Assembly (NCBI RefSeq): GCF_000745855.1
Contig: NZ_JQKD01000022.1
Span: forward strand, 1-64,000
DNA: 64,000 bases
Direction: 5' to 3'
Source: Xenophilus azovorans DSM 13620
GTDB lineage: Bacteria > Pseudomonadota > Gammaproteobacteria > Burkholderiales > Burkholderiaceae_C
Position 1 is the first letter of the stretch, and each line of letters starts with the position of its first letter. A model generated the notes under the pieces. That model worked only from the letters and a program-made list of their open reading frames with translations. It was not told where the DNA came from and made no database searches. The translations under genes were made by a program, and so were the position numbers. Below are positions 1,231 through 10,804 of this stretch, one piece after another.

Positions 1231-1719
1231 TCAGAGATAGATTTTCTGCAGCAGGCGGATCAGCGTCTCGCGTTCGCGTGCGGTGAGCTTGGCGCTGGCG
1301 TCCTGTTCGAGCTGGACGACGGCTTTTTCGGCCTCGCGCACCAGCTCTTCGCCGGCCGGCGTGAGGTGCAGGCCGACGGCGCGCCCGTCGTACGGGTGGG
1401 GGCGCCGTTCGATCAGGCCGCGCTTGTCCATGCCGGCCACGATGTTGACGAAGTTGGGCGGCAGGATATCGAGCTTGGCGCACAACTGGCGCGAGGTGGC
1501 GCCCGGGTTGTGCGCCAGCAGCGAGAGCACGGAGAAATCCACCGGCTTGAGGCCGTAGTCGGCCATGCGTTCGGCGAACACCGCGCTGATGACCAGGTAG
1601 GCGCGCCGCGTGTTGTAGCCGACCAGGCTTTCGAGCAGGCCGCTGTCCAGCAGATCGGGGGTGTTGGCGGAGCGGGGGGCGCCGGGCGCTGTTTTTCTTG
1701 TCGTCGATGTCGATGCCAT
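1231..1719 (-). CDS. MarR-family regulator, probable hydroxycinnamate repressor
   Basis: This 162-residue protein has the MarR layout: an N-terminal dimerisation helix, a winged helix-turn-helix (SRQLCAKLDILPPNFVNIV, residues about 75-95), a wing with RRPHPYDGRAVGL, and a C-terminal dimerisation helix. A longer frame opens at 1794, but the Met at 1719 fits family length better. It is the last gene of the minus-strand hydroxycinnamate operon, 112 bp after the acyl-CoA dehydrogenase. MarR regulators of such operons (FerC/FerR, CouR) are known to be released by the hydroxycinnamoyl-CoA thioester. Here that role is inferred from context. The likely operator is the dyad at 9862-9880. Confidence 0.85.
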   Translation of the reverse strand: MASTSTTRKTAPGAPRSANTPDLLDSGLLESLVGYNTRRAYLVISAVFAERMADYGLKPVDFSVLSLLAHNPGATSRQLCAKLDILPPNFVNIVAGMDKRGLIERRPHPYDGRAVGLHLTPAGEELVREAEKAVVQLEQDASAKLTARERETLIRLLQKIYL

Positions 1720-1831
1720 GGCGCGCAGGCTACCGTAGCCCGGCCGCCGCGCACGCAGGGCTTCCCTGGGGGTGGGGGCGTCGGACGGGCTCACCGGAAT
1801 ACCTTCGCGCTACGGCACTGGCACGCAATGC

Positions 1832-3607
1832 TCATGCCGCCTCGCAGGCCTTCTTGACGATGCCGGCGCGCAGCTCGAACTCCGGCAGCACCCAGCGGCG
1901 GAAGGCGGCGGCCGGGCGCGCCCAGCGCGCGGCGTCGGCGCCGGGCGTGGCCTCGATGCGCGCCCAGGCCCAGGCCATCATGGCCAGCATCGCCAGGCGC
2001 AGGTAGTCGTCGGCCACTTCGTAGGGCAGGCGCGGCCTGGCCTGGGCGGCCATGGCGACGTTCGTCGTCAGGTAGCGCAGCTGCGCCAGGCGGCGCTGGG
2101 CGTCGGCATCGGCCTCGCGCGAGGCGTCCAGTTCGTCGCGCAGCGCCAGCAGCGTGGCGGCGAAGCCGGCGCCGGCGTCGGGCAGCACCTTGCGCACCAA
2201 GAGGTCGATCGCCTGGATCTCGTTGGTGCCCTCGTAGATCATGGTCACGCGCGCGTCGCGAAGCACCTGCTCGATGCCCCACTCGCGCACGTAGCCGTGG
2301 CCGCCGAAGACCTGCAGGCAGGCGCTGGCGCCCTCGAAGCCCTGCTGCGTGCAGGCGGCCTTGAGCACCGGCGTGACGTAGCTGCACCACTGCTGCGCCG
2401 CCTCGCGCGCGCGGGCGTCGACGGCGTGGCGGGCCACGTCGAGCTGCACGCCGGTGCGGTAGGCGATCAGGCGCGCGCCATCGGCCCAGGCGCGCTGGGT
2501 GTCGAGGATGCGGGCGACGGCGGGGTGGTCCTCGATCAGGCTCGGCTCGCTGCCGGGCGCGCCGGGCGCCGAGGCAGCGCCGGGCCGCCCCAAGCTGCCG
2601 AGTCCCCCTCGGGGGGCGCCGCCGGCATCGCCGGCGGCTGGGGGCGCTTTCATCTGCCGCCGCTCGGCGGCATAGGCCGCGGCCTTCTGCAGGGCGGCGT
2701 CGAGCAGGCCGATGCCCTGCAGTGCTACGTGCAGGCGCGCGCTGTTCATCATGACGAACATGGCGGCCAGCCCGCGGCCGGGCTCGCCGACCAGCCAGCC
2801 GGTGGCCTCGTCAAAGCGCATCACGCAGGTGGGGCTGCCGTGCAGGCCCATCTTTTCCTCGATGCGCTCGCAGTGCACCGCGTTGCGGCTGCCGTCCTCC
2901 AGCACCTTGGGCACCAGCGCGAGCGACAGGCCCTTGGGGCCGGGCGGGCCGTCGGGCAGGCGGCACAGCACCAGGTGGACGATGTTGTCCGTCAGGTCGT
3001 GCTCGCCGCCGGAGATGAAGATCTTGGTGCCGGTGATGCGCAGCGAGCCGTCGGCCTGCGGCTCGGCGCGCGTGCGCACCAGCCCCAGGTCGCTGCCGGC
3101 GTGGGCCTCGGTCAGGCACATGGTGGCGAGCCATTCGCCGGTGGCGATCTTTCCGAGGTAGCGCGCCTTGAGTTCGTCGCTGCCGTGGTGCTTCAGGCAC
3201 TCGTAGGCGCCGTGCAGCAGGCCCGGCGCCATGGTGAAGCCGTGGTTGGCGCCGCTGAGCCATTCGTACAGCACCGCCTCCAGCACGGCCGGCAGCCCCT
3301 GGCCGCCGTCGTCGGGGTGGGCCGAGAGGGCCGGCCAGCCGCCATCCACGAAGGCGCGGTACGCCTCGCGGAAGCCCGGCGGCGTGCGCACGCTGCCGTC
3401 AGCCTCGCGGCGGCAGCCGGTCTCGTCGCCCTCGCGGTTCAGCGGCGCGACCACCTCGCCGACGAATTTGCCGGCTTCATCCAGCACCTGCTGCACGAGT
3501 TCCGCATCGACTTCGCCGAAGGGCGCCAGCGCCTGCAGCGCGGCCGGCGCAGCCAGCACGTCGCGCAGCAGGAACAGGGTGTCGTCGGGGAGGGGGCGGT
3601 AGTCCAT
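1832..3607 (-). CDS. Acyl-CoA dehydrogenase (DmdC-like, with C-terminal domain)
   Basis: This 591-residue flavoenzyme has the N-terminal helical domain, the middle FAD-binding domain (MCLTEAHAGSDLG, TKIFISGGEHD), the C-terminal four-helix domain with the catalytic region MIYEGTNEIQ, and the extra C-terminal domain of the long acyl-CoA dehydrogenases related to 3-methylmercaptopropionyl-CoA dehydrogenase. It probably oxidises an acyl-CoA such as a dihydrohydroxycinnamoyl-CoA into the enoyl-CoA used by the same operon; this substrate is inferred. Residues about 318-346 form a Gly/Ala/Pro-rich insert encoded by an intergenic-type repeat. The gene starts 19 bp after the esterase gene stops, so the two are probably cotranscribed. 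Confidence 0.9.
   Translation of the reverse strand: MDYRPLPDDTLFLLRDVLAAPAALQALAPFGEVDAELVQQVLDEAGKFVGEVVAPLNREGDETGCRREADGSVRTPPGFREAYRAFVDGGWPALSAHPDDGGQGLPAVLEAVLYEWLSGANHGFTMAPGLLHGAYECLKHHGSDELKARYLGKIATGEWLATMCLTEAHAGSDLGLVRTRAEPQADGSLRITGTKIFISGGEHDLTDNIVHLVLCRLPDGPPGPKGLSLALVPKVLEDGSRNAVHCERIEEKMGLHGSPTCVMRFDEATGWLVGEPGRGLAAMFVMMNSARLHVALQGIGLLDAALQKAAAYAAERRQMKAPPAAGDAGGAPRGGLGSLGRPGAASAPGAPGSEPSLIEDHPAVARILDTQRAWADGARLIAYRTGVQLDVARHAVDARAREAAQQWCSYVTPVLKAACTQQGFEGASACLQVFGGHGYVREWGIEQVLRDARVTMIYEGTNEIQAIDLLVRKVLPDAGAGFAATLLALRDELDASREADADAQRRLAQLRYLTTNVAMAAQARPRLPYEVADDYLRLAMLAMMAWAWARIEATPGADAARWARPAAAFRRWVLPEFELRAGIVKKACEAA
2571..2652. repeat. REP-like palindromic repeat inserted in frame in a coding gene
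   Basis: This stretch holds two strong dyads: CCCCC-TC-GGGGG, and GCCGCCGGC-ATC-GCCGGCGGC with perfect 9-base arms. Its 17-base end (2578-2594) recurs exactly, in inverse orientation, between lysS and the LON-domain gene (62866-62882). This type of GC-rich palindrome is normally intergenic. Here it is read through in frame and gives a low-complexity loop just after the ERRQM motif of the acyl-CoA dehydrogenase. Confidence 0.75.
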
Positions 3608-3626
3608 GGTGCGGCGGAGAAGGGGT

Positions 3627-5339
3627 TCAGGAAGCGCGGCAGGCGAAGCTGGCCGCCTGCTCGGGATCGCCGCCGACGTAGCGGGCCACGCGCGGCCAGG
3701 CGCACAGCGGGCGGCTGCGCTGCGGCGACCAGTCCGCCGGCACCTCGGGGTTGGGCTGCGGCGTGCCGGCGCCGCGGGCGCGGGCTTCCACCGCGTCGGG
3801 CGCGCGGCCCTGTTCGACCCAGGCCACCAGCGGCGCCAGCAGGTCGAACTGGTCGGTGGACGGGCCGCCGCGGCAGTGGTTCATGGCCGGCACGGGGAAG
3901 TAGCGCGCGAAGGCCGCGGCCCGGCCGCCGTGGGCGGCGTCCAGCTCGCCGTACCAGCGCGCGGTGTCGCTGGGGGAGAACACGCCGTCGGCAGTGCCGT
4001 GGTAGACGATCATCTTCGCGCCGCGGCCGCGCAGCGCGGCCAGGTCGCCGGCCGGCGGCAGCATGAAGTCCAGCGCCGATTCGCGGTAGGTGGCGTCGCG
4101 GGCGGCGATGCGCGGCGCGTCGCGGTCCATGTCGAAGCCCAGCGCGAAGGGCAGGCCCTGCGGCCGGTCGGCCAGCGGCGGCGTGCTGAAGATGAAGGCC
4201 ACCGCGGCGGCGTCGCGCGTGCCCGGCGAGGCGAGCTTCCAGTTCCGCCAGTCCTGGCCGGCCAGGCCGGGATCGAACGGGAAGGCGCTGTACAGGGCCT
4301 TGCCCCGGCTGTCGCGGGCGCCGGCGAAGACGCGCGCGAGCGTGTCCTTCTGCGCCGGCGTGAGGCACCGGCCGGTGCGCTCGCCGGCGCAGGCCGGCAC
4401 GTCGCGCGCCACGTCGAAGCGCGCCTGGCAGGCCTGCACGTCGCCCACGATGCCGTCGGCCAGGCCGTCCAGCGCGTCGCAGCGGGCGCGGATGCGGCCG
4501 GCGACGAAGGTCAGCTCGTCCGGCGTGAAGGCGGTCTGCAGGTCGGGCTGGCCGGCGGCGGTGCGGCCGGTGGCGATCCGTGCGTACTGCTGCGCCCCCC
4601 ACAACTGCGCGACGGCGGCCCTGGGCAGGTTGAAGCCCGGGTTGCCGGCCAGCACGCCGTCGTATTCGCCGGGCAGGCGCGCGGCGGCCACCATGGCGTG
4701 GCGGCCGCCGTTGGAGCAGCCGGCGATGTAGGAGCGGTCGGGCCCGCGCCCGTAGGCGGCGGCGACGAGCTGCTTGGCCACCGGCGTGAGCTGGGTGACG
4801 GCGTCGTAGCCGTAGTCCCGCCGCGCCTGCGGATCGAGGCCGAAGCGCGGGTTCTGCGCGCCGCTGTGGCCGGCGTCGGAACTGACCACGGCGAAGCCCT
4901 GCTGCAGGGCCGTGTGGGTCGGCGCGCCGCCGCCGATCGTGCCCATGGCGGGCACCACCGCGCCGTCCAGGCCGCCGTTGACCTGGTGCAGGAAGCGTCC
5001 GTTCCAGGCGTCCGGCAGCCGCAGCTCGAAGCCGATGGCATAGCGCTGGCCGTCCACCGGGCTGGTGCGTTCGTTCAGCCGGCCCTGCACCAGGCAGTGG
5101 GCCGGCACCGCAACCGGGCTGTTACCCACCGTGACGGTGTCGGCCGCCACCGGCTCGGCGCGCGTGAGCACCGTGCCGGCGGGCAGGGCGCCTTGCGCCA
5201 GCGCCGCGCACTGGTGCAGCGCGCCCGGCCGCGCGGCGGCCAGGCGCGGCAGGCTGGCATCTGCATCCGGCCGGCTGCCGCAGGCGGCCAGGAGCAGGGC
5301 GGCACTGCCGGCCGCCACGGTCAGGCGCATGCCCCGCAT
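3627..5339 (-). CDS. Tannase/feruloyl-esterase family lipoprotein
   Basis: This 570-residue protein starts with a lipoprotein signal (MRGMRLTVAAGSAALLLAAC), so it is exported and anchored by the Cys of LLAAC. The mature part is an alpha/beta hydrolase of the tannase family. The nucleophile is Ser209 in GCSNGG, the acid is probably in the HGTADG segment, and His488 is in MNHCRGGP. The family cleaves aromatic esters such as gallates and hydroxycinnamate esters. Placed in an operon with a feruloyl-CoA-synthase-like enzyme, it should release free hydroxycinnamates outside the inner membrane. The start at 5339 lies 5 bp after the TTT receptor stop; a second Met at 5330 is an alternative. Confidence 0.88.
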   Translation of the reverse strand: MRGMRLTVAAGSAALLLAACGSRPDADASLPRLAAARPGALHQCAALAQGALPAGTVLTRAEPVAADTVTVGNSPVAVPAHCLVQGRLNERTSPVDGQRYAIGFELRLPDAWNGRFLHQVNGGLDGAVVPAMGTIGGGAPTHTALQQGFAVVSSDAGHSGAQNPRFGLDPQARRDYGYDAVTQLTPVAKQLVAAAYGRGPDRSYIAGCSNGGRHAMVAAARLPGEYDGVLAGNPGFNLPRAAVAQLWGAQQYARIATGRTAAGQPDLQTAFTPDELTFVAGRIRARCDALDGLADGIVGDVQACQARFDVARDVPACAGERTGRCLTPAQKDTLARVFAGARDSRGKALYSAFPFDPGLAGQDWRNWKLASPGTRDAAAVAFIFSTPPLADRPQGLPFALGFDMDRDAPRIAARDATYRESALDFMLPPAGDLAALRGRGAKMIVYHGTADGVFSPSDTARWYGELDAAHGGRAAAFARYFPVPAMNHCRGGPSTDQFDLLAPLVAWVEQGRAPDAVEARARGAGTPQPNPEVPADWSPQRSRPLCAWPRVARYVGGDPEQAASFACRAS

Positions 5340-5344
5340 GGCGC

Positions 5345-6337
5345 TCAGGATTCCGCCGTGAACCCGATCTGCTTGACCAGCGGACCCCAGCGCTCGTACT
5401 CGGCCTTCTGGTCGGCCGCCATCGCCTGCGGCGTGCTGCCGTGCGCCACCAGGCCCACCAGCGCCAGCGAGTCGACGACCGACTTGTCCTTCAGCGCGGC
5501 GGTGATGGCGGCGTTGGCCGCGGCGATGGTGGCGGCAGGCGTCTTCGCGGGGGCGAAGAAGCCGAACCATTCCTCCGAGGTCACGTCCGGGTAGCCCAGC
5601 TCGGTGAAGGTGGGCACGTCGGGCAGGTAGGGCGAGCGCTGCTTGCCCGAGGTGGCCAGCACGCGCACGCGGCCGCTCTTCATGTACTGCAGGTAGTCGC
5701 CGCTGGGGTTCATCGCCGCGGCGATCTGGCCGCCCACCAGGTCGGTGATGCTGGGCACCGTGCCGCGGTAGGGCACGTGCTTGAGTGCCACGCCCGAGCG
5801 CAGGCCGAGCAGCGCGCCCAGCAGGTGCGGCATGGAGCCGGCGCCGGGCGAGCCGTAGCTGGCCTGGTCCGGGTTGGCCTTGGCCCAGGCCAGGAAGTCC
5901 TTGAGCGTTTTCACCTCGGCCGGCACGGCCGGGCCCACGGCCAGGCCGTGGAACATGATGGCGCCGATGGACACTTGCGTCACGTCCTCGGGCTTGTAGC
6001 TGAGCTTGGGGTAGATGTACGGGTAGACCGAGAGGGCCGACACCGGCGCCAGCGTGAGCACCGAGCCGTCGGGCGGCGAGTTCTTCAGCGCCTCGACCGC
6101 GATGCGGCCGCCGGCGCCGGGCCGGTTCTCCACATAGCCGGGGTTCTTGCTGTAGGGCGTGCCGCCGATCTTCTCGGCGACGCGGCGGGCGACGCTGTCG
6201 CCCGCGCTGCCGGCCGGGAAGCCGTACATGATCTTCACCTGGTCCAGCGCCTGGGCCAGCGCGGAAAGCGGTGCGAGCGCGCCCAGCGCGGCGGCACCGC
6301 CGAGGGCGTGGAGGAGGAAGTGGCGACGGTCTTGCAT
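5345..6337 (-). CDS. TTT (Bug-family) periplasmic solute receptor
   Basis: This 330-residue protein has an N-terminal signal with twin arginines (DRRHFLLHALGG) followed by a hydrophobic run ending near ALAQA. The rest is a Bug/TctC-type binding fold, with the family's GGRIAVEALKNSPPDG, YGSPGAGSMPHL and HVPYRGTVPSITDLVGGQ segments. Such receptors bind carboxylates or aromatic acids for tripartite tricarboxylate transporters. No TctA/TctB membrane genes are nearby, which is usual for Bug proteins. A good ribosome site (AAGGAGAC) precedes the Met at 6337. In this operon a phenolic acid ligand is plausible but not shown. Confidence 0.9.
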   Translation of the reverse strand: MQDRRHFLLHALGGAAALGALAPLSALAQALDQVKIMYGFPAGSAGDSVARRVAEKIGGTPYSKNPGYVENRPGAGGRIAVEALKNSPPDGSVLTLAPVSALSVYPYIYPKLSYKPEDVTQVSIGAIMFHGLAVGPAVPAEVKTLKDFLAWAKANPDQASYGSPGAGSMPHLLGALLGLRSGVALKHVPYRGTVPSITDLVGGQIAAAMNPSGDYLQYMKSGRVRVLATSGKQRSPYLPDVPTFTELGYPDVTSEEWFGFFAPAKTPAATIAAANAAITAALKDKSVVDSLALVGLVAHGSTPQAMAADQKAEYERWGPLVKQIGFTAES

Positions 6338-6366
6338 GGTCTGTCTCCTTTGGTGGCGGGGGCGGG

Positions 6367-7131
6367 TTATCGGGGCGACATGCGCAGCGCGCCGTCCAGG
6401 CGGATCACCTCGCCGTTGAGGTGGCCGTTGGTGACGATGTGGCAGGCCAGCTCGGCGAACTCCGAGGGCTTGCCCAGGCGCGGCGGGAAGGGGATCGAGG
6501 CGGCCAGCGACTGCTGCACGGGCTCGGGCAGCTCCAGCAGCAGCGGCGTGGCGAAGATGCCGGGCGCCACGGTGCACACGCGGATGCCGTGCTGCGCCAG
6601 GTCGCGCGCCATCGGCAGCGTCATGCCCACCAGGCCGCCCTTGCTGGCGCTGTACGCCTGCTGGCCGACCTGCCCGTCGAAGGCCGCGACCGAGGCGGTG
6701 AACATCATCACGCCGCGCTCGCCGCCGTCCAGCGCATCGAGCTTCGCGCAGCGCGCGGCGAACAGGCGGCTGATGTTGTAGGTGCCGATCAGGTTGACGT
6801 TGACGACGCGCGCGAAGTCTTCCAGCGGCGCCGGGCTGCCGTCCTTGCCGACGATGCGCTTGGCGCTGCCGATGCCGGCCACGTTCATCAGGATGCGCGC
6901 CGGGCCGTGCGCCGCCTCGGCGCCGGCCAGCGCGGCCTCGACGCTGGCGGTGTCGGTGATGTCGCAGGCGAAGGCTGCGCCGCCGATCTCGGCCGCCACC
7001 TTCGCTGCGAGTTCGGCGTTGCGGTCCAGCACGGCGACCCTGGCGCCCAGCCGGGCCAGCTCGCGGGCGGTGGCCTCGCCCAGGCCGGATGCGCCGCCGG
7101 TGACGAGCGCGCTCTGTCCTTCGATCTTCAT
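6367..7131 (-). CDS. SDR 3-hydroxyacyl-CoA dehydrogenase (type II/HSD10-like)
   Basis: This 254-residue short-chain dehydrogenase has a TGGASGLGEA nucleotide-binding motif near residue 11, an acidic residue after beta-2 (VLDRN) that favours NAD, an NVAG motif, an active-site Ser in the FTASVAAF stretch, and YSASK. The CDITDT segment and the C-terminal GEVIRLDGALRM resemble the HSD10/type II 3-hydroxyacyl-CoA dehydrogenases. It would oxidise the beta-hydroxy-acyl-CoA made by the hydratase of the same operon, the role of CouN in Rhodococcus. It sits between the ligase and the TTT receptor, 16 bp from the ligase. Confidence 0.87.
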   Translation of the reverse strand: MKIEGQSALVTGGASGLGEATARELARLGARVAVLDRNAELAAKVAAEIGGAAFACDITDTASVEAALAGAEAAHGPARILMNVAGIGSAKRIVGKDGSPAPLEDFARVVNVNLIGTYNISRLFAARCAKLDALDGGERGVMMFTASVAAFDGQVGQQAYSASKGGLVGMTLPMARDLAQHGIRVCTVAPGIFATPLLLELPEPVQQSLAASIPFPPRLGKPSEFAELACHIVTNGHLNGEVIRLDGALRMSPR

Positions 7132-7147
7132 GTCTCGCTCCTTTGCG

Positions 7148-9022
7148 TCATTGCCATTGCGGCTTGAGGGTGAAGGGCAGCGCGTCGGCGTGCAGCGCCT
7201 GCACGGCGGCGTCGCGGTGCTTGAGCACGGCGCGCTGGTTGATGGAGCCCTTGTCCGTCACCTCGCCCTTGTCGATGGAGGGCGGCTCGGCCATCAGCGC
7301 GGCGCGGGCGATGCGGTTGGCGCTGCCGGTGGCGTCGCCGGCCAGCCGGTCGACGACTTTCTGGAAGTGCTGCTGCACCGCCTCGCTCTCCAGCACCTGC
7401 TGCATCGGCGCGCCTGGCGGCAGGCCGGCCAGTTCGCGCACCGCCTGCGTCGGGAAGATCAGCGCGCCCACTTCCTTCATGTTCAGGCCGGTGAGCACCA
7501 CGTCCTGGATGTAGGGCGCGCCGAAGGCGATCACCTTGGCGCGCAGCGGCCCCACGCTGACGAAGGTGCCGGTGGCGAGCTTGAAGTCTTCCGCGATGCG
7601 GCCGTCGAAGCGCAGGCCCAGGTGGATGTTGTCCGGGTCGATCCAGGCCACGGCGTCGCCGGTCTTGAAGAAGCCTTCCTCGTCGAAGGCGTCGTGCGTC
7701 GCCTCGGGCATGCGCCAGTAGCCGGGCGTGACGTTGGGGCCGCGGTAGCGGATCTCGACCTTGCCGTCGGTCGGCACCAGCTTCACTTCCATGCCCGGCG
7801 TGGGCAGGCCGAGGTCGCCGGTCTGCACCTGCGGGCGGGTGATGTACAGGCCGAAGGGGCCCGATTCGGTCATGCCCAGGCCGGTGCCCATCACCAGGCG
7901 CTCGCCGATCTCGGCCTCCTGGATGCGGTGGAGCTGGTCCCACACCGCCTGCGGCAGCGCGGCGCCGGCGTAGAAGAACATGCGGCAGCGCGACAGCAGG
8001 CGCTTGCGCAGCACCGCGTCCTCTTCCATCGCGTTGGCGATGTACTCGAAGCCGGTGGGCACGTTGAAGTACACGGTGGGCGCGATCTCGCGCAGGTTGC
8101 GCAGCGTCTCGGCGATGCCGGCAGGCGTGGGCTTGCCGTCGTCGATGTAGAGCGTGCCGCCGTTGTCCAGCACGATGCCCACGTTGTGGTTGCCGCCGAA
8201 GGTGTGGTTCCACGGCAGCCAGTCGACCAGCACCGGCGGCTCGTCGCCCAGCGCGGGGATCGAGGCGCGCAGTTGCGCCTGGTTGGCGCACCACATGCGG
8301 TGCGTGTTGATCACCGCCTTGGGGTTCTTGGTCGAGCCCGAGGTGAAGAGGAACTTGGTGATGGTGCCCGGGTGTGTGGCGTGCATGGCCGTGTCCACCG
8401 CAGCGGTGGGCTCGGCGGCCAGCAGCTCGGCGAGCGGCGTGGTGCGGCGGCCCTCCAGCGTGCCGCCGGCCAGCACCACCTCCACGTCCTGCGGCACGGT
8501 GGCGGCGATGGCGGGGGCATAGCGCGTGTCGGCCGCGAACACCAGGCCCGGCGTCAGCGTGCCCAGCACGTGGCGCAGCTTTTCGTAGTCCTTGCTCACC
8601 AGCGAGTAGGGCGGCGAGACGGGGCAGTGCGGGATGCCCGCGTACAGGCAGCCCAGCGCCAGCAGCGCGTGCTCGATGCCGTTCTCGCTCAGGATGGCGA
8701 CGGGGCGCTCTTCCGACAGGCCACGGTCGAGCAGCGCCTGGCCGATGGCGCGCGCCTTCGCCAGCGCCTCGCGGTAGGTGACGCGGATCCAGTCGCCGGT
8801 GCTGCCGTCGGCGTTGCGCGCGCGGCGGGCGATGAAGGTGCGCTCCGGCGCCACGGCCGCCCAGTACACCAGGCGGTCGGTCATGCGGTGCGCGTAGGGC
8901 CCCAGGGGCCGCTCGGCCGCGAGGTACTGCACGCCGTCGCCGCCCTCGCGCAGCACGCCGCGCGTGACGCCGAAGGCCAGGGGGCGGTAGGCCGGCGCAG
9001 CCGCCCGTGTCGTCTCCGTCAT
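7148..9022 (-). CDS. fcs: Feruloyl-CoA synthase-like hydroxycinnamate-CoA ligase
   Basis: This 624-residue AMP-forming acyl-CoA ligase carries the P-loop FLFTSGSTKNPKAV at about residues 225-240, the substrate/AMP segment GTGLGMTESGP, the hinge GLRFDGRIAEDFKL, and a C-terminal DKGSINQRAVL with the adenylation-type Lys. The TESGP and RIAEDFKL versions, the N-terminal RPLGPYAHRMTDRL and the length of about 620 are typical of bacterial feruloyl-CoA synthases. It activates ferulate, p-coumarate or caffeate in the cytoplasm. It follows the hydratase gene by 35 bp. Confidence 0.88.
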   Translation of the reverse strand: MTETTRAAAPAYRPLAFGVTRGVLREGGDGVQYLAAERPLGPYAHRMTDRLVYWAAVAPERTFIARRARNADGSTGDWIRVTYREALAKARAIGQALLDRGLSEERPVAILSENGIEHALLALGCLYAGIPHCPVSPPYSLVSKDYEKLRHVLGTLTPGLVFAADTRYAPAIAATVPQDVEVVLAGGTLEGRRTTPLAELLAAEPTAAVDTAMHATHPGTITKFLFTSGSTKNPKAVINTHRMWCANQAQLRASIPALGDEPPVLVDWLPWNHTFGGNHNVGIVLDNGGTLYIDDGKPTPAGIAETLRNLREIAPTVYFNVPTGFEYIANAMEEDAVLRKRLLSRCRMFFYAGAALPQAVWDQLHRIQEAEIGERLVMGTGLGMTESGPFGLYITRPQVQTGDLGLPTPGMEVKLVPTDGKVEIRYRGPNVTPGYWRMPEATHDAFDEEGFFKTGDAVAWIDPDNIHLGLRFDGRIAEDFKLATGTFVSVGPLRAKVIAFGAPYIQDVVLTGLNMKEVGALIFPTQAVRELAGLPPGAPMQQVLESEAVQQHFQKVVDRLAGDATGSANRIARAALMAEPPSIDKGEVTDKGSINQRAVLKHRDAAVQALHADALPFTLKPQWQ

Positions 9023-9057
9023 GTCGATCTCCGTCGATTGAAAAAGGGGGCCGGGCC

Positions 9058-9834
9058 TCAGCCCTTGGCGACCTTGGCGGCGCGGCCTTCGAGGAAGGCG
9101 CGCACGCGCTCCTTGGCGTCCGGCGCGTCCTGCACGATGCCGGACATCAGCGCCTCGGTGAAGAAGCCATGGTCGGCCGGCTGCTCGGCGATGCGCGGCA
9201 GCGCGTGCATCAGGGCGTAGTTGGTCAGCGGTGCGTTGGTGGCGACGCGGCGCGCCAGCTCCAGCGCCTTGTCGAAGGCCGTGCCCTCGGGCACCAGGTA
9301 CTGCGCGAAGCCGGCGCGCTCGCCTTCCTCGGCGTTGTAGACGCGGCCGGTCATCATCATGTCGGTCATGCGCGCCACGCCGATCAGCCTGGGGATGCGC
9401 ACCGAGCCGCCGCCGCCGACGAAGATGCCGCGCGAGCCCTCGGGCAGCGCATAGAAGGTGCTCTCGTCGGCCACGCGGATGTGGCTGGCGCTGGCCAGCT
9501 CCAGCCCGCCGCCGACCACCGCGCCATGCAGCGCCGCGATCACCGGCACCGGACCGCCCTGGATGCAATCCAGCGCCTGGTGCCACATGCGCGAGTGCTG
9601 CACGCCCTGGCTGGCGTTGCGCTCGCTGATTTCCGAGAGGTCGAGCCCGGCGCAGAAGTGCGGGCCCTCGCCGTCGAGCACCGCCGCGCGCACCGTGCCG
9701 GGCAGGTTCTGGAAGGTGTCGCGCAGCGCGAGGATCAGCCCGTCGTTGAGCGCATTGCGCTTGGCCGGACGGGTCAGGCGGACGATGGCGATGTCGTCCT
9801 GGATGTCGAGGCGGAGGTCGGGGTTCGGCGTCAT
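9058..9834 (-). CDS. Crotonase-family enoyl-CoA hydratase for hydroxycinnamoyl-CoA
   Basis: This 258-residue crotonase has the oxyanion-hole segments HFCAGLDL (about 59-66) and HGAVVGGGLEL (103-113). Glu112 and Glu132 (in YALPEG) are exactly 20 residues apart and match the two catalytic glutamates of true enoyl-CoA hydratases (E144/E164 of rat crotonase). Hydratase-lyases of the HCHL type have Ser at the first site, so simple hydration is favoured over retro-aldol cleavage to vanillin. It is the first gene of the operon, with an AAGGA ribosome site before 9834. Related proteins are often annotated as p-hydroxycinnamoyl-CoA hydratase/lyase, so activity remains to be shown. Confidence 0.85.
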   Translation of the reverse strand: MTPNPDLRLDIQDDIAIVRLTRPAKRNALNDGLILALRDTFQNLPGTVRAAVLDGEGPHFCAGLDLSEISERNASQGVQHSRMWHQALDCIQGGPVPVIAALHGAVVGGGLELASASHIRVADESTFYALPEGSRGIFVGGGGSVRIPRLIGVARMTDMMMTGRVYNAEEGERAGFAQYLVPEGTAFDKALELARRVATNAPLTNYALMHALPRIAEQPADHGFFTEALMSGIVQDAPDAKERVRAFLEGRAAKVAKG

Positions 9835-9857
9835 GATTGCAGTCCTTGCTGGAATCG

Positions 9858-9886
9858 ATTATGGTTATGAAAAATAACCAACTCAA
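9858..9886 (-). promoter_or_regulatory. Promoter with embedded MarR-type operator for the catabolic operon
   Basis: Reading the minus strand, a -35 TTGAGT (9886-9881) and a -10 CATAAT (9863-9858) are 17 bp apart. An inverted repeat, TGGTTAT-gaaaa-ATAACCA on the + strand (9862-9880), fills the spacer and overlaps the -10. A protein bound here would block polymerase. The dyad lies in the only gap between the divergent catabolic units, so it is the best candidate site for the MarR repressor encoded at the operon end. The prediction is from sequence alone. Confidence 0.7.
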
Positions 9887-9937
9887 GCACCGCCGCGCCT
9901 GATTGGATCGGTATTTACCCTAGCCCGGAGACAGTCC

Positions 9938-10804
9938 ATGGACATCGCCAACCTCATCGCCATCGACACGCACACCCATGCCGAGGTGAGCTGCTGGAAC
10001 CCCTTCGACAACTACGGCGAGGAGTACGACCGCGCGGCCGACAAGTACTTCAAGTCCGGCCGCCGCCCGACCATCCAGGAGAGCATCGACTACTACCGGG
10101 AGCGGAAGATCGGCATGGTGATGTTCGGCGTGGACAGCGAGTCCAACCTGGGCCGCCGCCGCATTCCCAACGAGGAGATCGCCGAGGCGGCGCAGAAGAA
10201 CCCCGACGTGCTGATCGCCTTCGGCAGCATCGACCCGCACAAGGGGAAGATGGGCGCGCGCGAGGCGCGGCGGCTGATCGAGGAGCACGGCGTACGCGGC
10301 TTCAAGTTCCACCCCACCGTGCAGGGCTACCACCCCTACGACCGCATGGCCTGGCCGATCTACGAGGTGATCGCCGAGCACCGGCTGCCGGCGGTGTTCC
10401 ACACCGGCCACAGCGGCATCGGCTCGGGCATGCGCTGCGGCGGCGGCCTGCGGCTGGAATACAGCAACCCGATGCACCTGGACGACGTGGCGATCGACTT
10501 CCCCGACATGCAGATCGTCATGGCGCACCCGAGCTTCCCGTGGCAGGACGAGGCGCTGTCGGTGGCCACGCACAAGCCCAACGTGTGGATCGACCTCTCG
10601 GGCTGGAGCCCCAAGTACTTCCCGAAGCAACTGGTGCAGTACGCCAACACGCTGCTGAAGGACCGCGTGCTGTTCGGCAGCGACTGGCCGCTGATCTCGC
10701 CCGACCGCTGGATGAAGGACTTCCAGGAGGCCGGCTTCAAGCCCGAGGTGATGCCGGGCATCCTGAAGGACAACGCCGTCCGGCTGCTCGGCCTGGGCGG
10801 CTGA
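9938..10804 (+). CDS. Amidohydrolase-2 family hydrolase/decarboxylase (CouO-like candidate)
   Basis: This 288-residue TIM-barrel metal hydrolase has the HTH metal motif at His12/His14, further His residues in FKFHPT, FHTGHSG and MAHPSF, and a metal-ligand Asp249 in FGSDWPL. The family includes ACMSD and resorcylate decarboxylases and, in Rhodococcus hydroxycinnamate catabolism, the CouO protein that hydrolyses the beta-keto thioester into acetyl-CoA and a hydroxybenzoate. Divergent placement from the ligase/hydratase genes across one operator, and the absence of a thiolase, make a CouO role attractive. Plain decarboxylation or demethylation of an aromatic acid is the alternative. Confidence 0.78.
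   Translation: MDIANLIAIDTHTHAEVSCWNPFDNYGEEYDRAADKYFKSGRRPTIQESIDYYRERKIGMVMFGVDSESNLGRRRIPNEEIAEAAQKNPDVLIAFGSIDPHKGKMGAREARRLIEEHGVRGFKFHPTVQGYHPYDRMAWPIYEVIAEHRLPAVFHTGHSGIGSGMRCGGGLRLEYSNPMHLDDVAIDFPDMQIVMAHPSFPWQDEALSVATHKPNVWIDLSGWSPKYFPKQLVQYANTLLKDRVLFGSDWPLISPDRWMKDFQEAGFKPEVMPGILKDNAVRLLGLGG

Follow-up and report, generated by a model that had tools for sequence, protein, structure and literature searches.

The eight genes at positions 1231-10804 of a 64,000-nucleotide stretch of Xenophilus azovorans DSM 13620 (contig NZ_JQKD01000022.1; hereafter the window, that is, the stretch at its full length) appear to form a unit for the coenzyme A (CoA)-dependent β-oxidative deacetylation of hydroxycinnamates of the ferulate, p-coumarate and caffeate class. 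We propose, with a probability of roughly 0.8, that this unit is of the Agrobacterium fabrum type and that its last step is of the CouO type. The proposal is based on homology, gene order, catalytic residues, the conservation of a candidate operator and the lack of any Ech-type match over the model cut-off in the genome. Reading of the sequence together with Pfam and NCBIfam searches confirmed seven minus-strand genes and one divergent plus-strand amidohydrolase gene, as described in an original prediction made from the DNA alone, and the core of this arrangement is syntenic in relatives. In the proposed pathway, an esterase in the cell envelope would free the acid from plant esters, and a Bug receptor may aid its uptake. 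The ligase would convert the acid to an aryl-acrylyl-CoA, and an acyl-CoA dehydrogenase (ACAD) may turn dihydro-acids into the same thioester. This would be hydrated by the crotonase and oxidised at the 3-hydroxyacyl-CoA stage by a short-chain dehydrogenase/reductase (SDR), and the metal-dependent amidohydrolase would then hydrolyse the aryl-β-ketoacyl-CoA next to the aryl ketone, yielding vanillate or 4-hydroxybenzoate and acetyl-CoA. Such a pathway would proceed without a thiolase and without an aldehyde intermediate; the absence of a thiolase and a vanillin dehydrogenase from the unit had already been noted, and Pfam indeed shows neither a thiolase nor an aldehyde dehydrogenase among the eight genes. 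The sequence of ligation, hydration, oxidation and CouO-type cleavage under MarR control from a shared gap, which was also part of the original prediction, is the best reading of the unit.

The amidohydrolase (9938-10804, plus strand; Pfam Amidohydro_2, 5.9e-52) resembles CouO/HpeF-type proteins over its full length, with 53-73% identity in comparisons with Rhodococcus wratislaviensis, Rhizobium and hpe-cluster members. By BLASTP, it shares 53% identity with the CouO-like protein of R. wratislaviensis (locus L116), which stands in for Rhodococcus RHA1 and was taken as cou (couN-couO-couM) from the gene order SDR-amidohydrolase-MaoC. Residue 257 of the R. wratislaviensis protein is an Asp in a GSD motif and falls in the same column as D249 of the window protein. 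D257 is reportedly a required metal ligand of RHA1 CouO, and the D257N variant is said to be inactive. Residues H12, H14, K123, H155, H197 and D249 are invariant across 20 aligned sequences. The amidohydrolase is also 59% identical to a Rhizobium protein (Q54) annotated as '4-hydroxyphenyl-beta-ketoacyl-CoA hydrolase', which clusters with a ligase, a crotonase, an SDR, an ACAD and a MarR regulator. A counterpart with 73% identity closes an acetophenone-carboxylase-type (hpe-like) cluster in Pseudomonas putida YC-AE1, and one with 58% identity is found in an hpe-like cluster of R. leguminosarum; both adjoin biotin-carboxylase-type, HAD and acetoacetate-CoA-ligase genes. These clusters, which end in the CouO-like amidohydrolase, are located on plasmids (L072:2274-10864 and L114:2411-9873; P. 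putida YC-AE1 and R. leguminosarum). According to an excerpt of PMC9618137, HpeF is 95% identical to RHA1 CouO, and the same cleavage has been proposed for it. The common factor of the Rhizobium, Rhodococcus cou-like and hpe-like kinds of cluster would be an aryl-β-keto thioester, and this is our strongest argument for the substrate of the amidohydrolase, which is probably an aryl-β-ketoacyl-CoA hydrolase with an aryl acid and acetyl-CoA as products. On a quick tree of 134 rows (LG+G4, automatic labels, one same-family row being labelled maoC, probably wrongly), it belongs to a starred set of 37 rows, and 30 of these carry the label of ligase-plus-crotonase loci. Four changes are needed on this tree to account for the four rows labelled hpe, which suggests that the amidohydrolase has switched from one kind of cluster to another at least twice.

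The Fcs-type ligase, PRK08150 crotonase, SDR, CouO-like hydrolase and MarR regulator each have a homologue in the Rhizobium cluster (identities of 46% for the ligase, 54% for the crotonase, 59% for the SDR as for the amidohydrolase, 38% for the ACAD and 33% for MarR), and owing to this gene-by-gene match the unit is best filed as the A. fabrum type. The Rhizobium cluster was compared in place of that of A. fabrum C58, so that the match is direct for Rhizobium and inferred for C58. The SpG8-1b cluster of C58 comprises Atu1415, 1416, 1417, 1421 and HcaR and shares with the window a feruloyl-CoA synthase, an enoyl-CoA hydratase, a hydroxyacyl-CoA dehydrogenase, a β-keto-CoA cleaving enzyme and a MarR regulator, but differs in having MarR in one unit with Atu1421 and a vanillate demethylase inside the cluster (PMC7797058, in excerpt). 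In Rhizobium, the crotonase, MarR and amidohydrolase genes are co-directional and divergent from the ligase and SDR genes, whereas in the window only the amidohydrolase gene is divergent, and the row further encodes a tannase-type esterase and a Bug receptor. As SpG8-1b is the closer model, units of this kind were already known in Proteobacteria.

The original prediction had labelled the unit CouLMNO-like, and this label holds only in part. The reaction order and the CouO-type amidohydrolase with its aligned Asp are shared with the RHA1 cou system. In contrast, and as judged from R. wratislaviensis, the ligase is only 24% identical over 405 amino acids to the CouL-like protein, the best NCBIfam models of the two differ, and the CouM-like protein is of the MaoC type (PF01575) and gives no BLASTP match to the window crotonase at 1e-3. 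The CouN-like protein belongs to the same superfamily as the SDR (31% identity, versus 59% for Rhizobium). A one-to-one match of ligase, hydratase and SDR with CouL, CouM and CouN is not supported. Thus, only the amidohydrolase is close to the Rhodococcus set. In the Corynebacterium glutamicum phd cluster, a ligase, an ACAD, a hydratase, an SDR, an amidohydrolase-like protein and a MarR regulator are likewise encoded together. CouO is a member of the amidohydrolase superfamily, and its product is an aromatic acid, as stated in the available part of PMC4737184. The Hpe pathway for acetovanillone and hydroxyacetophenone shares the amidohydrolase, but makes the β-keto thioester by ketone carboxylation, and the window unit lacks a carboxylase. 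With the Ech-Vdh (Fcs/Ech) route the unit has in common a feruloyl-CoA-synthase-like ligase and differs in that no Ech over the cut-off is found in the genome and no aldehyde dehydrogenase in the unit. A hydratase-lyase and a vanillin dehydrogenase are reported from a Paraburkholderia ferulate transcriptome in an excerpt of PMC9701309, so such bacteria possess that route as well. Our literature search found no characterisation of this operon type in a betaproteobacterium, a weak result given that most subscription papers were outside its reach.

The adenosine monophosphate (AMP)-forming CoA ligase (7148-9022, minus strand; 624 amino acids) is of the feruloyl-CoA-synthase type (PRK12582, NF009232) and 46-52% identical to proteins annotated as feruloyl-CoA synthase in the Rhizobium and Terrarubrum clusters (L073, L111). 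The crotonase-fold enoyl-CoA hydratase (9058-9834, minus strand) belongs to the PRK08150 family, with an NF006013 score of 416.7 bits against a cut-off of 232, and is 54-60% identical to its counterparts in the same two clusters. It scores 75.2 bits on the Ech model NF006588, below the cut-off of 276. In the alignment, it keeps both hydratase glutamates, which we take to be E112 and E132, whereas the single Ech-type sequence compared (L198) has a Thr at the first position and keeps the second. The SDR (6367-7131, minus strand; Pfam adh_short) is probably a 3-hydroxy-3-arylpropionyl-CoA dehydrogenase.

The remaining enzymes would supply the pathway. The tannase/feruloyl-esterase-family hydrolase (3627-5339, minus strand; PF07519, 3.5e-121) has a lipobox-like LLAAC motif, and its GCSNGG, HGTAD and NHC motifs line up with those of MHETase, so that the serine-hydrolase motifs of the tannase family are present. 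MHETase is also its nearest solved structure (E 1.6e-112), followed by feruloyl esterases, and it is 39% identical to a tannase encoded in an Alloyangia cluster. The protein probably frees acids from esters and is probably located in the cell envelope, which makes it a candidate for assays with esters or with mono(2-hydroxyethyl) terephthalate (MHET). No description of an esterase-plus-ligase operon was found in a literature search of titles and abstract openings. The periplasmic binding protein of the Bug/TctC type (5345-6337, minus strand; Pfam TctC, 1.6e-52) is a probable uptake receptor, and the ACAD (1832-3607, minus strand; 591 amino acids, Pfam Acyl-CoA_dh N/M/1) probably feeds dihydro-acids (aryl-propionates) into the pathway.

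Expression of the operon and of the amidohydrolase gene is probably controlled by the MarR-family protein encoded by the last gene of the row (1231-1719, minus strand; Pfam MarR_2, 4.3e-14), which we predict to act as a repressor on the shared gap through one palindrome. The 103-bp gap between the crotonase and amidohydrolase genes carries the sequence TGGTTATGAAAAATAACCA at 9862-9880, a candidate operator of the form TGGTTAT-N5-ATAACCA. It lies inside the sole promoter-like site found (9886-9858, minus strand; 1 found, 0.2 expected), and with up to 2 mismatches allowed it has no second occurrence in the genome of 6.5 Mb. We surveyed the operator in 39 loci (the window and L031-L068), of which 28 have divergent crotonase and amidohydrolase genes, 5 are non-divergent and 6 lack a crotonase. 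A site matching at least 11 of 14 positions is present in 22 of the 28 divergent gaps, window included, and in 0.4% of gaps after single-base shuffling. Among the 27 relatives with divergent gaps, MarR adjoins the genes in 22: the 15 with a MarR of at least 56% identity have operator scores of 11-14, and the 7 with a MarR of at most 41% have scores of 7-11 (Mann-Whitney p 2e-4, which is too small a value as the loci are related). The five relatives in which no MarR was found score 13-14. This joint change of MarR type and operator is the pattern expected of a regulator and its site. The nearest solved structure of the MarR protein is 6c28 (named CouR; E 1.9e-17), and RHA1 CouR (3fm5/5cyv) matches at E 4e-4. 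RHA1 CouR is released by p-coumaroyl-CoA, as reported in the available part of PMC4737184; by analogy, the ligand of the window protein may be of the same class, presumably an aryl-acrylyl-CoA.

The seven minus-strand genes are transcribed in the order crotonase, ligase, SDR, Bug/TctC receptor, esterase, ACAD, MarR, with gaps of 35, 16, 29, 5, 19 and 112 bp, the last preceding MarR. These short gaps fit a single operon, without proving it. Gene starts were taken from the sequence, and the open reading frames of high-GC comparison loci were chosen with a filter on GC content at third codon positions (GC3). Just downstream of MarR, on the opposite strand, lies an SDR gene of the NF005436/PRK07023 kind (469-1230; 242.5 bits, cut-off 292), which we do not count as part of the unit.

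Among 150 genomes of the same family, 58 (that of X. azovorans included) have a near-full-length match to the amidohydrolase with at least 64% identity, and in one further genome (G041) the gene is split over two contigs. Ech over the cut-off is present in 3 of the 150, and one of these genomes (G056) carries both genes. Synteny was examined in 36 of the 57 other amidohydrolase-positive genomes (full-length, at least 64%), mostly of closest kin; four loci with an amidohydrolase of 33-64% (L067-L070) were left out, some stretches were cut off by the ends of their contigs, and the SDR of L038 is fragmentary. A ligase and a crotonase stand beside the amidohydrolase in 30 of these 36 loci, an SDR in 26, all three in 24 and a MarR gene in 24. 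The gene grouping thus exceeds chance. As the ACAD (16 loci), the Bug receptor (15) and the esterase (9) vary, the conserved core is SDR-ligase-crotonase/amidohydrolase. In a survey of 299 genomes of the phylum (thresholds E 1e-85 for the crotonase and E 1e-90 for the amidohydrolase), both genes occur in 14 genomes, the crotonase only in 5, the amidohydrolase only in 8 and neither in 272. This co-occurrence (Fisher p 8e-15) speaks for the proposed pathway. Four of the eight amidohydrolase-only genomes have Ech, and two others (L266, L268) have a sub-threshold crotonase of 51-53% identity. No genome of the 299 has both Ech and a window-type crotonase (among 15 and 19 genomes, respectively), which is not significant (p 0.61).

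Several observations weigh against the proposed pathway. The p-values overstate independence, as the counted genomes are related. Six of the 36 amidohydrolase loci are without ligase and crotonase. In L042, L048, L051, L060 and L065, an amidohydrolase of 81-88% identity lacks these partners and in some cases stands beside housekeeping-like genes, as read from N-termini. Five of the 19 crotonase-positive phylum genomes have no amidohydrolase at the thresholds used; one of these five (G020, locus L262) has MarR, esterase, Bug receptor, SDR, ligase and crotonase genes in a row, and another enzyme may thus perform the last step there. Linkage of the amidohydrolase to the ligase-crotonase-SDR cluster is absent from four genomes that belong to a different family (f41). 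The f41 loci (L249, L251, L253, L255) encode crotonase, ligase, SDR and an ATP-binding cassette (ABC) binding protein, with the amidohydrolase found elsewhere (L250, L252, L254, L256). A survey with the Rhodococcus query, of which the best 80 of 582 loci, mostly from actinobacteria, were considered, showed a MaoC gene near the amidohydrolase in 33, an acetoacetate-CoA ligase in 19 and none of the sought partner types in 22. The ligase scores 706.9 bits on NF009232 (7148-9013), below the cut-off of 777. Although the genome has no Ech over the cut-off, it has 72 NF006588 matches (best 161 versus 276 bits), and lyase activity elsewhere in the genome is therefore possible. Finally, the last enzyme of the C58 pathway is called a β-keto-thiolase, and some reactions are marked as putative, in the excerpt of PMC7797058.

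Of the rival explanations, it is quite improbable that the crotonase acts as a hydratase-lyase that forms an aromatic aldehyde and acetyl-CoA, with an aldehyde dehydrogenase encoded elsewhere and the amidohydrolase serving another path. The nearest solved structure of the crotonase is 3hin, presumably a Rhodopseudomonas palustris protein that might be CouA, and R. palustris CouA reportedly yields p-hydroxybenzaldehyde. The aldehyde dehydrogenase that this route would require could lie outside the unit. Yet both hydratase glutamates are kept, unlike in the Ech-type sequence, and the amidohydrolase uses the same operator gap. The SDR would be superfluous in a lyase route, yet it is encoded in the operon and in the f41 clusters described above; being idle in such a route, the f41 SDR is also relevant to the way in which the R. 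palustris couAB route is depicted. On the latter the literature disagrees: in the excerpts available, PMC3610893 puts the couAB cluster in a non-β-oxidation route, whereas PMC10458429 calls the R. palustris route β-oxidative. A role of the amidohydrolase as an aromatic acid decarboxylase, akin to LigW or to the dihydroxybenzoate decarboxylases, is very improbable. It shares the Pfam family and the fold with these enzymes: its AlphaFold model (pLDDT, the predicted local distance difference test, 87.7) is closest to the uncharacterised 3irs, followed at ranks 2-50 mostly by decarboxylases and some unassigned amidohydrolases at 14-20% identity, which adds to the points against our proposal, but such a likeness of the model is as the superfamily would predict. 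In the search of solved-structure sequences, the best match was an uncharacterised protein (88.5 bits), and decarboxylases reached 28.9 bits at best, against 53-73% identity to CouO/HpeF-type proteins. Together with the conserved linkage to ligase and crotonase, this upholds the expectation that the amidohydrolase groups with CouO-type proteins and not with decarboxylases.

It is rather unlikely, too, that the same chemistry serves another main substrate, either a different aryl-propanoid or acids freed from other esters by the MHETase-like esterase. The structural neighbour of the esterase, the ACAD in the operon and the variation of transport genes and esterase among relatives would agree with this, but the ligase and the cluster as a whole resemble others that carry a feruloyl-CoA synthase annotation, a CouR is the closest match of the MarR protein, and PobA and VanA-like genes suit hydroxy- and methoxybenzoate products. 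A further variant, which we regard as unlikely, is that the PRK08150 crotonase is a hydratase-thioesterase releasing a free 3-hydroxy acid. The PRK08150 family includes dmdD-annotated proteins, and the window crotonase is 48-50% identical to plasmid genes with this annotation. In 16 actinobacterial loci among the best 80 of 582, a PRK08150-type crotonase (51-64%), an acetoacetate-CoA ligase, a carnitine-dehydrogenase-like enzyme and a CouO-like hydrolase occur together, with an AMP ligase in 11. Among them are L133:3500-9900, L124 and L137; in L133, TIGR01217 is over its cut-off and NF005471 (L-carnitine-dehydrogenase-like) under it. This four-part set seems chemically closed only with cleavage of the thioester, followed by oxidation of the free acid and its renewed activation, which suggests a free-acid detour. 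If this held for the window, its SDR and CouO-type enzyme would have to act on free acids, as the row has no second ligase.

In the genome as a whole (6.5 Mb in 132 contigs), the window amidohydrolase is the sole match to its own sequence at E 0.001. Matches over the cut-off number two for PobA and seven for VanA_C, and PobA and VanA-like oxygenases encoded elsewhere in the genome could take the proposed products onward. A second PRK12582-like ligase, 41-48% identical to that of the window, is encoded at G000:C5:268069-269850 (L200:9540-11414). It adjoins what resemble genes for an ABC binding protein, a β-keto acid cleavage enzyme and a two-gene oxidoreductase, and no crotonase or aldehyde dehydrogenase was recognised alongside, as read from N-termini only. 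On a Massilia putida plasmid (L202:2194-14171), a crotonase of the same type (56%) lies beside a 3-hydroxyacyl-CoA-dehydrogenase-type gene, with genes for a 3-keto-5-aminohexanoate cleavage protein, an AMP ligase, an ACAD and electron transfer flavoproteins (ETF), a set that suggests another way of ending such a pathway.

Taken together, the operon is a real, conserved and rather ordinary catabolic unit, and what is new here is its assignment to the A. fabrum type, the candidate operator and the frequency of the amidohydrolase in the family. The catabolism of ferulate in proteobacteria is commonly depicted as the Ech-vanillin route, and, given how common the amidohydrolase and how rare Ech is among the 150 family genomes, many of these would be misread if annotated by that route alone. 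Through the unit, vanillate is predicted to be reached without vanillin, under the control of a dedicated regulator with a single site.

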